Origin: Halanaerobiales bacterium
Lineage (GTDB): Bacteria; Bacillota; Halanaerobiia; Halanaerobiales; DTU029
Length of the DNA: 64,000 nucleotides
Reading direction: 5' to 3'
Assembly: GCA_029981855.1 (NCBI GenBank)
Contig: JARRCS010000007.1
Coordinates: 1 to 64,000 of the forward strand
Below the pieces are notes generated by a model. That model saw only the letters and a list, made by a program, of their open reading frames with translations, searched no databases and was not told where the DNA came from. The position numbers and the translations under genes are program-made. Below are positions 47,946-56,159 of the stretch, piece after piece; positions within the stretch are counted from its first letter, which is position 1, and each line of letters opens with the position of its first letter.

Positions 47946-47964
47946 TACATAAAACAACCGGCAG
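47937..47964 (+). repeat. Direct repeat, left copy (tRNA-Glu 3' end; candidate att site)
   Basis: GGGCTACCATACATAAAACA ACCGGCAG; the copy at 52681-52708 differs at one base of 28. It includes the last nine tRNA bases and the start of the terminator. Confidence 0.65.
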
Positions 47965-47986
47965 AAAAATCTGCCGGATTTTTTTA
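47956..47986 (+). terminator. Terminator of the tRNA pair
   Basis: CCGGCAG AAAAAT CTGCCGG followed by ATTTTTTTAT. Confidence 0.9.
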
Positions 47987-48014: not shown

Positions 48015-49565
48015 TTAATGAATGTTATCTTTTTTTATCACCTTAATACAGGCTTTAACCACGGACTCAGAATATTTTTTACCACTATTTTTAATTATTT
48101 CATCTAGTGCTGCGTCAATACCTAATGAGGGGCGATAGGGGCGGTGTGAGGCCATGGCCTCAATTACATCTGCAACTCCGAGTATTTTTGCTTCCAGAAG
48201 GATTTCATTATCTTTTAAACCTTGAGGATAACCTGAACCGTCTATTCTTTCATGGTGTTGTAAGATCGCCTCTGCTACCGGAAAGTCAAAAATAATATTC
48301 TTTACAACATTATAACCATCCAATGGATGTTCTTTAACCAACTCAAACTCTTTAAAAGAAAGCCTACCGGGTTTATTTAATATCTCTGCAGGAATTTTTA
48401 CCTTACCAATATCATGTAATAAACCCGCAATTCTTAACCCATCAAGCTGATCTTGAGATAGCCCCATACATCTCCCAATAGCACAAGCTAGCTCTGCTAC
48501 CCTTTCCTGATGTCTTGCAGTATAGGGATCACTCATACTTACAACTGAAACCAAAGTATAAATAACTGAGTCAATAATTCTTTTTTGTTTTTCATAACTC
48601 TCTTTTAACTTTTCCCTATCGGCCAAACGGTCCCAGTAGACTGTTAACATCTCTCCTACAAGTTTAAGAACCTTGATATCTTCCTTTAACCAGTTTCTAT
48701 TTTTCCTTTTGGTTTCATCAAAGCCAATAAACCCTTTTAAATTCTTCCCTGTAGAGAATACTGGAATAATTAAAAATGATTTAATATTTTGTTCCTGTAA
48801 AATTATTCTCTCATTTTTTCCCGCAGGTGGTATTTCATCTAAATCAGTAACAACTAGACTTTCTTCATTTATTAATTTATCCATCCACCAGGGGAAATCT
48901 TTTATCGGTAATTCCTGTAATTTATCTATTTGCTTTTCAACCCCCGGGGCACACCATTTATAGGTATTGGTCATAGTTTCTTTTTTGTTATCAATTTCAA
49001 AGATATAACTTCTATCAACATCTAGAGCACTCCCCAGGATGGAGAGAACCTGATTGAGGTCAACATTTTCCTGGGAAATAAATATATTTGATACCCTTAA
49101 AATTGCCTCTTCAACCATTAATCTCCTATCTAAACGTTCTTCCAGACGGAGTTTATCATCAATATTCTCAACCTGGATAAAATAAAAGGAGTCCCCCCTA
49201 TTATTCCTTATCAGAGATATTGTAACATTACACCAGACCGGGTAACCTTTTTTATGTAAATACCTTTTAAGAAAAGACATTCTCTCAGTTTCGTCATTCT
49301 GTAATTGCTTAAACCTCTTAAGCATATCCGGCCTATCTTCCGGATGGGTTAAATCAAGTTCATTTAACCCTATCAATTGATTTAAACTGTATCCTGTAAA
49401 CTGGCAAAAGGTTTCATTTGCTAGTAGATAATCCCCTGTATGTCCGGTAATCACCATACCGATACAGGCCTCCTTAAAAGATTTTTTTAACAAAATATCC
49501 TTTTGATTACCAATAATATGCCTTGCCTTTTTTGTAATATCTGCCTCAACAATCTTATCAAACAT
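48015..49565 (-). CDS. PAS-GAF-HD-GYP protein (c-di-GMP phosphodiesterase)
   Basis: A 516-residue protein: PAS domain (about 25-145, FCQFTGYSLNQLIGLNELDLTHPEDR), GAF-like domain (about 160-310, DVDRSYIFEID) and a complete HD-GYP domain (about 335-510): HQERVAELACAIGR, GLLHDIGKVKIP, HHERIDGSGYPQGL, VADVIEAMASHRPYRP. HD-GYP enzymes hydrolyse c-di-GMP. SD GAGGTGG precedes the ATG. It lies downstream of a c-di-GMP riboswitch and a broken DUF342 gene in one orientation, so its expression likely responds to its own substrate. Confidence 0.93.
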   Translation of the reverse strand: MFDKIVEADITKKARHIIGNQKDILLKKSFKEACIGMVITGHTGDYLLANETFCQFTGYSLNQLIGLNELDLTHPEDRPDMLKRFKQLQNDETERMSFLKRYLHKKGYPVWCNVTISLIRNNRGDSFYFIQVENIDDKLRLEERLDRRLMVEEAILRVSNIFISQENVDLNQVLSILGSALDVDRSYIFEIDNKKETMTNTYKWCAPGVEKQIDKLQELPIKDFPWWMDKLINEESLVVTDLDEIPPAGKNERIILQEQNIKSFLIIPVFSTGKNLKGFIGFDETKRKNRNWLKEDIKVLKLVGEMLTVYWDRLADREKLKESYEKQKRIIDSVIYTLVSVVSMSDPYTARHQERVAELACAIGRCMGLSQDQLDGLRIAGLLHDIGKVKIPAEILNKPGRLSFKEFELVKEHPLDGYNVVKNIIFDFPVAEAILQHHERIDGSGYPQGLKDNEILLEAKILGVADVIEAMASHRPYRPSLGIDAALDEIIKNSGKKYSESVVKACIKVIKKDNIH

Positions 49566-49639: not shown

Positions 49640-50879
49640 TCAAAATAATGATAAACCACCATTGTCGGCAAGATGTGCAGATATATTCTTTTTTTCAACA
49701 TTAAATTTATAACTTTGATCTCCTATTCTAATCAGAACATTTGGATAGACCTTTTGAGCTCTAATCTGACCATCTTTCGGTACCGCGACCTCAACAAGAC
49801 TGCCGCCAGGACTACCTAGTTCCTTTACAAAAACATTTTTAGCTATAACCTTACCGCCTCTAAATACACCTGGTTCACCGGTTAGTTTAACCTTACCTCC
49901 GGCCATTAAAGTAGAATTAAATACCCCTTCTCTGGTAACCAGAATATCTCCACTGGATTTAACAGTACTAGACTGAATATATCTTGCCTGTATTATTGCC
50001 TGATTTAAATCAATTTCTTTTATGGTATCGTAGACCATACTTATTTGCTGTTTCAGCCCCACTAATTCTTTTATATCATTGATATTAGATAACCCCTTTT
50101 CATTAATTTTTTCCCTTAGGTCAGTTATTACTTCCTGTAATTCTTTGATAACCTTCTCCTGTTCAACTCCTACCCCTAAGTTACTAAGCTTATTGATAAG
50201 TTCAGTTATATTATGATATTTTGTATCTATTAAAAACTGGATTAAGGCTCTAACCCCATATTTTTTTAGAGCCTTTGTTTTAAAGCCTGTATGATATTTA
50301 AGTTGGAGTGTAGCTTCTCTCATTTCCTCAAGTAGAGACATTATCTGATAAAGATATGAGAGACAGTTTTTATAATAAACTGATAAACTGCCTGCTATTA
50401 CAGTGCTTCCTACAATATTATTCCGAATAAAAATACCCTCATCAGACTCCAGCAGAGCATGATAAACACTTCCACCGACCTTAATAATTCCGGTTGCTTT
50501 TACTTTAAAGTTTTCCTTAACACTGCCGGAAATAAATACATCTCCGAAAAAATCAATATTACCTTCTTTTAAGTCAACATCTCCCTTGACAAAATAAACT
50601 TGATTTACCAGGAGTTTCCCATTCCTTATAACAGGTCTACCGGAACGGGTGGCAGATCATTTTTCTGATTTATTAATTTACCTTCATTCTTTCTTCCGCC
50701 GCTTTCATCCTGATTTTTACTTTAGCCATTCTACGCCCCAGCCCTAAAAACCCTCTTTTACCCCTATCAAGAACAATAATATCCGCATTCTCCTTGTTCA
50801 CTCCTAAAATCGCAATACCTTCCTTTATTGCCGTTTCAACATTTCTGTCTTTAATAATAATCTCTCTGGGTTGCTCCAA
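49640..50879 (-). pseudogene. Broken Jag_N-DUF342 (FapA-like) gene
   Basis: The first frame (50879-50673) encodes a Jag N-terminal domain (EIIIKDRNVETAIKEGIAIL and KRGFLGLGRR), then stops. A different frame, open from 50656 to 49640 without a start codon at its beginning, encodes the DUF342 beta-helix (GDVDLKEGNIDFFGDVFISG, KVGGSVYHALLES, GSTVIAGSLSVYY) followed by a coiled coil and VFRGGKVIAKNVFVKELGSP. In relatives these are one Jag_N-FapA protein with a further domain between them. Here that middle domain is missing and the frames differ, so a deletion plus frameshift is inferred. A shorter product from an internal ATG (50341) would begin within the beta-helix and looks non-native. Confidence 0.75.
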
Positions 50880-50944: not shown

Positions 50945-50986
50945 AAAAATAAAACCCTATTCCTCCTTAAAATTTCAGGAATAAGG
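50945..50986 (-). terminator. Riboswitch-controlled terminator
   Basis: Minus strand CCTTATTCC (50986-50978) pairs with GGAATAGGG (50963-50955), followed by TTTTATTTTT. The upstream AATAAGG (51004-50998) can pair with CCTTATT (50986-50980) instead and break the terminator. Confidence 0.85.
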
Positions 50987-51007
50987 TCTGGTTCCACCCT
51001 TATTTCC

Positions 51008-51092
51008 TTCGGCAGGCTGACAGTCATAGTATTAAACCTTAGACTCATGCCTTTGCGCCCTTACCTTTCAGTAAGTTTGCCTTTTCGAGGAA
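51008..51092 (-). ncRNA. Cyclic di-GMP-I riboswitch (GEMM-I)
   Basis: Minus strand, in order: AAGGCAAAC, TTACTGAAAGGTAAGG (the GNRA-like loop with GAAA), GCGCAAAGGC, ATGAGTCTAAGG, and ATGACTGTCAGCCTGCCG. This order and spacing are those of the GEMM-I aptamer, with the conserved GCAAAC, GAAA and GCAAAG elements. A terminator with a competing antiterminator helix follows directly, then the broken Jag_N-DUF342 gene and the HD-GYP gene. The alternative pairings suggest transcriptional control; the direction (on or off) is not decided by reading alone. Confidence 0.9.
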
Positions 51093-51149
51093 TTATATGA
51101 TAGTATTTAAATTACAAAATAATAAATTATATAATATTTTTTACCAAAG

Positions 51150-51196
51150 AAAAAAGCCGATACCTTATCATATCAAAGAAATAAGGTATTGGCTCC
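51150..51196 (-). terminator. Terminator of the XRE-DUF2294 gene
   Basis: Minus strand AGCCAATACCTTAT ... ATAAGGTATCGGCT then TTTTTT; a 14-bp stem with one mismatch. Confidence 0.9.
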
Positions 51197-51334: not shown

Positions 51335-51922
51335 TTATTTTAATAGATTATCTTTAAAAATAATAGTCGTTAACATCTCCGGACTGGTTATTTTTCCATC
51401 AAAATATATTTCCTTTACTGTACTACCTACCGTTTCATTTAGAATATTAATTAAAGATTCCTTACAATTTTCAAAAATAACCTCTAACAGATTCTTATAT
51501 ACTTCTTTTCCTTTTTCACTTTTTAATAAATGGTCTAATAAAGGGCTGGTATACTGTTGGCATCTTATAACTACTATATCTTCAAAAACTCTTGTTTTTA
51601 ATGATTTAGGTCCATGCCCTACTACCTTTTTATAAAATTTACCAATTGCTCGATTAATATTTTCTTCCATTTCCCTTCTCTTCAAAAGATTCTCTTGATC
51701 TATCTTTTCAGCTGGGCTTATTTCAGTACTTAAAAGCTGATCTGGTAATACATCTAAAGCCTCAGCTATTTTTTTTAAACTACGTATAGTCGGGCTTTTC
51801 TGTCCGCTTTCAATATCACTCAAAAAAGACTGGGATAAACCGGCCTTTTGGGCTAAAGCAACCTGACTGAGAGATTTTATTTTCCTCAACTTTTTTATCA
51901 TTTTGCCGAGCTGTTGACCCAT
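51335..51922 (-). CDS. XRE-type HTH regulator fused to a DUF2294 (MpsC-like) domain
   Basis: About 195 residues. Residues 1-70 are an HTH_3 domain (IKKLRKIKSLSQVALAQKAG, LSQSFLSDIESGQKSPT); the rest matches the DUF2294/MpsC pattern: REMEENINRAIGKFYKKVVG, HGPKSLKTRVFEDIVVIRCQ, SPLLDHLLKSEKGKE and a final ITSPEMLTTIIF. The domain usually stands alone and has been linked to sodium or bicarbonate-related membrane systems in some Firmicutes. A fusion to HTH suggests it senses a ligand. ATG (51922) follows AAAGGTGGAG. It diverges from a second XRE gene. Confidence 0.75.
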   Translation of the reverse strand: MGQQLGKMIKKLRKIKSLSQVALAQKAGLSQSFLSDIESGQKSPTIRSLKKIAEALDVLPDQLLSTEISPAEKIDQENLLKRREMEENINRAIGKFYKKVVGHGPKSLKTRVFEDIVVIRCQQYTSPLLDHLLKSEKGKEVYKNLLEVIFENCKESLINILNETVGSTVKEIYFDGKITSPEMLTTIIFKDNLLK

Positions 51923-53838: not shown

Positions 53839-55932
53839 TCAATAGGGCTTTTCCCGGCTAACATCCCGCATCAGTATTTTTTCAAATGCCTCGGCGGGTA
53901 ATGGTTTGCTGAATAGATATCCCTGTATCCCATCACACTGTTGTTGTTTTAAAAAGGCGAGCTGTTCTTGTGTCTCCACCCCTTCGGCAATCACCTTGAA
54001 TTTCAGGCTGTGTGCCATGGCAATAATGGCGATGACAATCGCCTTATTATTCGGATCGATGGTGAGATCACGTACAAAGGACTGGTCAATTTTCAGGGTA
54101 TCTAGTGGGAAGTGTTTCAGATAACTGAGTGAGGAATAACCCGTTCCAAAATCATCTATCGATATATGTATCCCCATCTCTTCCAGGTGACGCAGCATCA
54201 CAATGGTAAAATCGGCATTTTGCATGGCAATGCTCTCGGTGATTTCCAATTCCAGGTAATGGGGCTCAAGCCCCGTTTCTTTTAGTACCCGGGTGACCGT
54301 TTCGACCAGATTTTGTTGCTGGAACTGACGCGCCGAAAGGTTTACTGCCACATGAACAGGCGGATAACCTGCTTCTTGCCAGGCTTTGTTCTGTGCACAG
54401 GCAGTACGCAGTACCCATTCGCCAATCGGTATGATAAGTCCGGTTTCTTCCGCCAGTGGGATAAACTCCGCCGGAGAGAGTAGCCCCCACTCAGGGTGCT
54501 GCCAGCGTATCAGGGCTTCCATGCCGATAATTTTTCCAGTGCTGATACTCACCTGAGGCTGGTAATAAACCACGAATTCCTCACGCTCCAGTGCATAGCG
54601 CAGACTATTTTCCAGGACCAGCCGTTCAGAGGCTTTAACATTCATCATCGGATCGTAAAGCTGATAGTTGTTCCCGCCCTGTTCCTTGGCACGGTACATA
54701 GCAATATCGGCGTTCTTCAGCAGGGTTTCAGCGTCTTCGCCATCGTTGGGGTAGAAGACAATCCCGATGCTGCTAGTGATATAGAATTCGTGACCACCAA
54801 TCATCAATGGCTGTTTGAAGGCCTCAAGGATTTTTTTGGCAATTTTGGTCGCATTTTCTGCCTGGGCGATTTCCGGTAATAACAGTATGAATTCATCGCC
54901 CCCCATGCGGGCAACGGTGTCGTCTTCACGCACAAGGTCTGTCAGTCGTTCGGCAACACCTTGCAGTAACTGGTCTCCTACGTTGTACCCTTGTGTATCA
55001 TTAATGTTTTTAAATCGATCCAGGTCAAGAAATAATACAGCCAGCTTCTGCCGATTGCGGTATGCATGAGCCAGTGCCTGGGTGAAACGGTCATTGAACA
55101 ACATTCGGTTAGGCAAACCAGTTAGAGCATCATGATAAACCTGCTGCCAGAGCATCTCCTCCGCCTGCTTGCGCTCGGTAATATCTTCCAAAGTCTCTAT
55201 TGCTCCAATGACCTCCCCCCTGGTATTTCGGAGCGGTGCGGCCGTAAAATGCAGCCATCGACCGTTTTCTCCAACCTCGGGGAAGAAATCTTCCCCCTCA
55301 TAGGCCCCTTGTACAAAGGACGACTTTCGGCACTTGCCCTGATAATATCTGTTTATTACCTCTTCAGATGCGCCATCAACGATAAGGTCTCCCAGGGTGG
55401 GCTTCTCCTTTGAATAGAAAGGCATCCACTGTTTTCTTTCTCCGATCATCTCCGCTGCAGAAAAACCGGTTAAAGCCTCACAGGCATTATTGAAATGGGT
55501 AATAATGTGGTCTTTATTAATCACAAAGGTCGGTATAGAAATCCCTGCGATAATATCTGCAAGCTTCTTTTCGTAATACAGATTATTTTCCCTGAGTGTG
55601 CCAATGACCCAGGCAATTCCCATAAACACTATAACACGTAAAAGGTCTTCTACAAGGAAAACAGATGAATCCACCAAAGCATAAGGAGCCATCAAACACG
55701 CCCCGAGGAAGAGGGCTATCCAGATACTCTGCCTCCCCCAGAAGAACCCTGCTAAAGCAATGGGTATGTAGAAAAAATGGGTAAATGCAGTATGAATCCT
55801 CCGTATGAAGACAAAATAGTAAACCATCCACATGCAAAATAAAATAAGCAAACTTAAAATGCTCACTTTTAAGGAAACTTTATTAGAGAAACGCCGTCCG
55901 TCTTTCTTTGAGCTATTTCCCCTTAGATACAT
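53839..55932 (-). CDS. Membrane PAS-GGDEF-EAL protein (c-di-GMP turnover)
   Basis: About 697 residues: four to five membrane helices (about 25-115), a PAS domain (about 130-265, ACEALTGFSAAEMIG), GGDEF domain with RMGGDEFILLL, and EAL domain with MEALIRWQHPEWG, LEITESIA, DDFGTGYSS, TLKIDQSF and AEGVET. Both active sites look intact, so it could make or degrade c-di-GMP. ATG (55932) follows AAGGGGG. Codons in the C-terminal half (CGC, CTG, GCG-rich) look more like Proteobacteria than the neighbours. It may be acquired. Confidence 0.92.
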   Translation of the reverse strand: MYLRGNSSKKDGRRFSNKVSLKVSILSLLILFCMWMVYYFVFIRRIHTAFTHFFYIPIALAGFFWGRQSIWIALFLGACLMAPYALVDSSVFLVEDLLRVIVFMGIAWVIGTLRENNLYYEKKLADIIAGISIPTFVINKDHIITHFNNACEALTGFSAAEMIGERKQWMPFYSKEKPTLGDLIVDGASEEVINRYYQGKCRKSSFVQGAYEGEDFFPEVGENGRWLHFTAAPLRNTRGEVIGAIETLEDITERKQAEEMLWQQVYHDALTGLPNRMLFNDRFTQALAHAYRNRQKLAVLFLDLDRFKNINDTQGYNVGDQLLQGVAERLTDLVREDDTVARMGGDEFILLLPEIAQAENATKIAKKILEAFKQPLMIGGHEFYITSSIGIVFYPNDGEDAETLLKNADIAMYRAKEQGGNNYQLYDPMMNVKASERLVLENSLRYALEREEFVVYYQPQVSISTGKIIGMEALIRWQHPEWGLLSPAEFIPLAEETGLIIPIGEWVLRTACAQNKAWQEAGYPPVHVAVNLSARQFQQQNLVETVTRVLKETGLEPHYLELEITESIAMQNADFTIVMLRHLEEMGIHISIDDFGTGYSSLSYLKHFPLDTLKIDQSFVRDLTIDPNNKAIVIAIIAMAHSLKFKVIAEGVETQEQLAFLKQQQCDGIQGYLFSKPLPAEAFEKILMRDVSREKPY

Positions 55933-56159
55933 AGTTACCCCCTTATCTTTCAACGTATTATCAAAAAATCATTTTATATATATTGTCAAATCCCTGTTAT
56001 TTCAAAGATTTTTCAAGAACAACTTATCACCACCCTCTTTTTAGGATGAATTAGTAATATATTCTAAAATATTTAATAACTTTTTACCCAAAAAAGGGTG
56101 GGTGACAAACTTTGAAACAAATTGTTTCTGTCTTACTGTTCGTTACCTCCTCACCAAAA

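Follow-up and report, generated by a model that had tools for sequence, protein, structure and literature searches.

A probable c-di-GMP-I riboswitch of the OFF type ahead of a broken FapA2 gene and an HD-GYP gene in a Halanaerobiales bacterium

Does a c-di-GMP riboswitch control a predicted c-di-GMP phosphodiesterase at this locus, and with which sign? The question is raised by a leader in the window, the 64,000-nucleotide stretch of contig JARRCS010000007.1 that we analysed. A sequence-only reading had described an element here, ahead of an HD-GYP operon. The element is present at that location; however, its strand, which had been omitted, is the minus strand. We consider it probable that the leader carries a true class I c-di-GMP riboswitch, working as a Cd1-type transcriptional OFF switch of an operon of FapA2 and a phosphodiesterase, in which the intact PAS-GAF-HD-GYP gene is likely to be the remaining target. 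Both the riboswitch class and the mechanism are known, and the FapA2/HD-GYP target is uncommon. The coordinates of all features are given in Table 1.

Table 1. Features of the riboswitch locus, in positions of the window and in the direction of transcription.
Feature	Position	Strand	Basis or remark
Possible sigma-70 promoter, TTGGTA-17-TATTAT	51119..51147	-	Consensus scan, 9/12 positions; predicted start ~51112
P1 5' arm, UUCCUCG	51086..51092	-	Minimum-free-energy folds of leader
c-di-GMP-I (GEMM-I) aptamer	51008..51091	-	RF01051, 75.7 bits, full length
P1 3' arm, CGAAGGAA	51004..51011	-	Minimum-free-energy folds; AGGAA common to antiterminator
Antiterminator 5' arm, AGGAAAUAAGG, 11 nt	50998..51008	-	Pairs with 50986-50977, one bulged A
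Switching strand, CCUUAUUCCU (antiterminator 3' arm or terminator 5' arm)	50977..50986	-	Fold
Terminator 3' arm, AGGAAUAGGG	50955..50964	-	10 pairs; hairpin -15.6 kcal/mol; 2/2000 shuffles
U-tract, UUUUAUUUUU	50945..50954	-	Sequence
Jag_N ORF, 68 aa, 5' remnant of FapA-like gene	50673..50879	-	PF14804, 5e-14
FapA beta-solenoid remnant, other frame	~49640..50653	-	PF03961, 1.5e-30
PAS-GAF-HD-GYP protein, 516 aa, predicted c-di-GMP phosphodiesterase	48015..49565	-	HD_5 1.1e-37, PAS, GAF
Probable operon-end terminator	47958..47977	-	8-bp stem

The aptamer and the genes that follow it

A GEMM-I aptamer had been proposed from the sequence, with an Rfam search as the check, and cmscan indeed returned RF01051 (c-di-GMP-I, GEMM-I) from 51091 to 51008. 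The match covers the whole model (1-87 of 87) and lies above the gathering score of 35 (E 4.6e-13), which places the element in the family. It is the sole RF01051 match in the 2.59 Mb genome; a search of the same genome for a c-di-GMP-II riboswitch, run without a positive control, found none. Just upstream of the riboswitch, an XRE-type HTH is fused to an MpsC domain (51335-51919, minus strand; PF10057, 6.9e-20), and less than 3 kb away a PAS-GGDEF-EAL protein (53839-55953, minus strand) is a second candidate for c-di-GMP turnover.

The description of an HD-GYP operon holds in part. An HD-GYP gene does lie downstream on the same strand, and the site scan lists no minus-strand terminator or promoter between 50341 and 49565; however, the nearest gene is FapA-like and the HD-GYP gene comes second. 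The FapA-like gene is broken: its N-terminal part and its beta-solenoid are not in one open frame, and the first ordinary start codon of the beta-solenoid remnant is found only at 50341. Both remnants are 47-48% identical to a 676-aa Jag_N-FapA (DUF342) relative in another genome (G048), the Jag_N ORF aligning to its residues 1-62 and the beta-solenoid remnant (47%) to its residues 339-671. The remnants are only ~35 nt apart, and residues 63-338 are lost, with ~0.8 kb deleted; the break could be an assembly error instead of a real deletion. A second FapA, complete with 609 aa, is encoded elsewhere in the genome, so the broken gene is a paralogue, which we name FapA2.

The HD-GYP gene is intact and begins ~1.4 kb after the riboswitch. 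Its catalytic motifs HDIGK, HHE and GSGYP and a later aspartate (VADV) align with 4mcw; that is, both the HD and the GYP motifs are present with metal-site residues. The operon would originally have been composed of FapA2 (Jag_N-FapA) and a predicted c-di-GMP phosphodiesterase gene, and the intact HD-GYP gene is likely what is left for the riboswitch to control. Standing behind a broken gene, it could be transcribed from a separate promoter or be subject to polarity.

FapA2 and HD-GYP genes in Halanaerobiales relatives

A contig scan with the window's FapA fragment as the query found no relatives. A search with a four-row FapA2 alignment found 15 loci, with carriers including Halanaerobium saccharolyticum, H. 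salsuginis and H. kushneri. The FapA2-type set comprises 17 genes in Halanaerobiales (E below 1e-90). GEMM-I is upstream in 8 of the 17 loci, and an HD-GYP gene comes next in three of these eight. The aptamer is directly upstream of FapA2 in seven, namely the window locus, G015, G017, G018, G023, G024 and G032, the last with its FapA2 gene cut by the contig end; in G021, it heads a gene run of GGDEF-EAL, PAS and FapA2. A short HD-GYP gene follows FapA2 in G015, G017 and G018. The more frequent partner of the riboswitch in these relatives is FapA2. Halanaerobiales carry roughly 120 aptamers in 38 genomes, so pairing with one gene family at such a rate is most unlikely to be due to chance, by a rough estimate and not a formal test. 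Elsewhere in the class, four loci (L112, L115, L116, L117) have an intact Jag_N-FapA2 and no GEMM-I; there, the gene has on one side a protein of ~400 aa whose end is HATPase-like and on the other a small STAS-like protein (domains assigned by eye).

In G006, which is in the family of the window genome, an HD-GYP gene stands immediately behind GEMM-I and a terminator. This gene is the reciprocal best match of that in the window (1.9e-98 and 2.8e-98; the next match is 3.6e-33). The two loci thus share aptamer, terminator and HD-GYP gene, whereas FapA2 is absent between GEMM-I and HD-GYP in G006 and broken in the window. The FapA2 copy of G005 is also broken, being split with two in-frame stops, and no GEMM-I aptamer was found on its contig. 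In the window genome's family, FapA2 therefore seems to be decaying while the HD-GYP gene is kept under the switch, an order of events that we infer.

Decay of FapA2 could also be read against an HD-GYP target. If FapA2 was the only gene under a real riboswitch and the HD-GYP gene has its own promoter, the switch would be a relic that has controlled nothing useful since the FapA deletion. The loci of G023, G024 and (within an operon) G021, which tie the switch to FapA2 with no adjacent HD-GYP gene of this type, are in line with this, as are the broken copies in the window and G005. We nevertheless regard it as unlikely: the orthologous HD-GYP gene is a direct target in G006, the riboswitch itself, in its aptamer and its switching strands, is intact and shows no decay, and the scan lists no promoter-like site just upstream of the HD-GYP gene.

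GEMM-I also occurs in other settings in this order. Tandem GEMM-I pairs, 50-70 nt apart, were observed at G019:C222, G037:C19, G034:C189, G027:C195, G029:C163, G016:C21 and G036:C86 (L076-L082). Each pair is oriented toward the 3' end of an HD-GYP gene that lies 0.3-0.8 kb away on the other strand, and in L077, L078 and L082 a small secreted-looking protein begins 11-14 nt after the second aptamer.

The expression platform and the direction of the switch

The leader can form two mutually exclusive pairings. AATAAGG (51004-50998) and CCTTATT (50986-50980), the two strands picked out in the sequence-only reading, are present as given; the full antiterminator is longer, with AGGAAAUAAGG and CCUUAUUCCU forming ten pairs with one bulged A (-10.3 kcal/mol). 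The antiterminator begins inside the P1 3' arm, and the two overlap in AGGAA (51008-51004). CCTTATT is also part of the terminator 5' arm, as had been claimed: CCUUAUUCCU pairs alternatively with AGGAAUAGGG in a hairpin, followed by the U-tract UUUUAUUUUU. When the 78 nt behind the aptamer were shuffled by dinucleotides, a hairpin with U-tract of at least equal stability arose in 2 of 2000 cases. The terminator and antiterminator that were visible by eye are thus borne out by calculation; a simple terminator scan missed the former because its 12-nt loop exceeds the scan's loop limit of 8.

The calculated energies change sides as the RNA grows. For an RNA that ends before the terminator 3' arm, without ligand, the antiterminator fold (-30.8 kcal/mol) beats the P1 fold (-29.4 kcal/mol) by 1.4 kcal/mol. 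For the full leader, P1 with the terminator (-44.2 kcal/mol) is favoured over the antiterminator fold (-40.1 kcal/mol). Without ligand, the nascent RNA would abandon P1, AGGAAAUAAGG would pair with CCUUAUUCCU, and the blocked terminator would allow the operon to be read. With c-di-GMP bound, P1 would be held and AGGAA would be unavailable; CCUUAUUCCU would then pair with AGGAAUAGGG, and this hairpin would end transcription ahead of the first gene. Since the P1 3' strand is shared with the antiterminator, c-di-GMP is predicted to turn the operon OFF.

A small difference in free energy sets the switch, and this difference depends on where transcription is predicted to start. The promoter match in Table 1 is weak, as chance alone would give 2.9 such sites in the 800 bp that were scanned; its predicted start is early enough to take in P1. 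A TATAAT at 51097-51092 abuts the aptamer, and an RNA started from there, at ~51085, would lack the P1 extension. A further hairpin with a U-tract (51156-51193, minus strand) carries CCTTATTTC, which is close to the switching strand CCTTATTCC, and is probably the end of the upstream gene.

The predicted arrangement is that of Cd1 (Cdi1_3), ahead of the C. difficile flgB operon, in which the terminator forms alongside the ligand-bound aptamer, both in competition with an antiterminator that takes up the P1 3' strand (PMC9262584), giving an OFF switch with P/A/T/H logic (PMC9262584, PMC6366702). All seven functional class I switches in C. difficile are OFF (PMC6366702). The window leader has the same GEMM-I aptamer, an intrinsic terminator after it that is compatible with the bound aptamer, and an antiterminator competing for the P1 3' strand, and the same OFF logic is predicted. 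However, Cd1 targets flagellar genes and has been tested experimentally, whereas the window switch heads a FapA2/HD-GYP operon and is known from sequence. Halanaerobiales loci with GEMM-I before flgB/flgC-like and chemoreceptor genes share the RNA family and the order with the window, but their targets serve motility and chemotaxis, whereas a turnover enzyme is part of the window operon. Among 34 sampled loci with a called first gene, ~7 are flagellar and ~7 chemoreceptor loci (by eye). GEMM-I precedes flgB/flgC-like genes in L032, L035, L037, L038, L040, L046 and L047 (by eye), as in Cd1.

With the OFF sign, c-di-GMP would lower its own phosphodiesterase, and the predicted feedback, which is plausible and was proposed in the sequence-only reading without a sign, would be self-reinforcing rather than corrective. 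The opposite sign, in which c-di-GMP favours read-through and raises the phosphodiesterase in a corrective loop, has precedents among GEMM-I switches in Bc2 (PMC6366702) and in pilM, which senses cGAMP (PMC9262584), and the FapA2 leader of H. saccharolyticum (G015) resembles a translational ON switch. For the window leader it is very unlikely, as P1 shares its strand with the antiterminator and not with the terminator, so that P1 formation frees the latter.

Regarding the ligand of this predicted OFF switch, the cmscan alignment contains the contact letters equivalent to G20, A47 and C92 (Vc2 numbering). We take the G at 51080 to be the G20 equivalent and the CC at 51012-51011 to be C92/C93. 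With G at this position, c-di-GMP is expected rather than cGAMP. Another cyclic dinucleotide such as cGAMP, which some GEMM-I aptamers bind and which a G20A change permits in the class I aptamer (PMC6274999), is highly improbable here given this G, as in the c-di-GMP class, and the HD-GYP and GGDEF-EAL genes nearby.

The sign across lineages and its meaning

The sign of the switch was compared by an ensemble calculation in which aptamer-held and free states were imposed by penalties. For the window leader, the imposed bound state also forbids part of P1, so its direction is taken from the fold energies. In G023, the terminator probability is 0.04 in the free state and 0.99 with the aptamer held, a clear OFF switch. 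In G015, the ribosome-binding site is unpaired with a probability of 0.01-0.1 at most positions when free and 0.69-0.97 when the aptamer is held; buried in one state and exposed in the other, it points to an ON switch. G017 is intermediate, and G018 shows no clear direction. In the anti-SD/SD helix, one compensatory change distinguishes CCACCUU/AAGGUG in G017 from CCACCUA/UAGGUG in G018; the Halanaerobium leader alignment uses only the L095 and L091 rows, and the OFF/ON contrast among lineages comes from few leaders.

These comparisons allow a broader, tentative proposal, that GEMM-I joins FapA2 and HD-GYP in a module for c-di-GMP control, found repeatedly across Halanaerobiales and with its sign flipped between lineages. 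It would be OFF by termination, and self-reinforcing, at the window locus and in G023 and G024, and ON, with the ribosome-binding site set free, and corrective, in Halanaerobium. With FapA2 decaying in the window's family, control there would be passing from that gene to HD-GYP.

Turnover genes of c-di-GMP are said to be rare targets of c-di-GMP riboswitches (PMC6366702, PMC11477304), and our literature search found no paper linking FapA/DUF342 with these riboswitches. The repeated association with a FapA paralogue and with HD-GYP enzymes departs from this rule, and it brings a little-studied FapA paralogue into the c-di-GMP regulon. Interest centres on the association of FapA2 with HD-GYP and on a possible flip of sign, and the Halanaerobiales leaders are natural pairs for comparing the sign of feedback.
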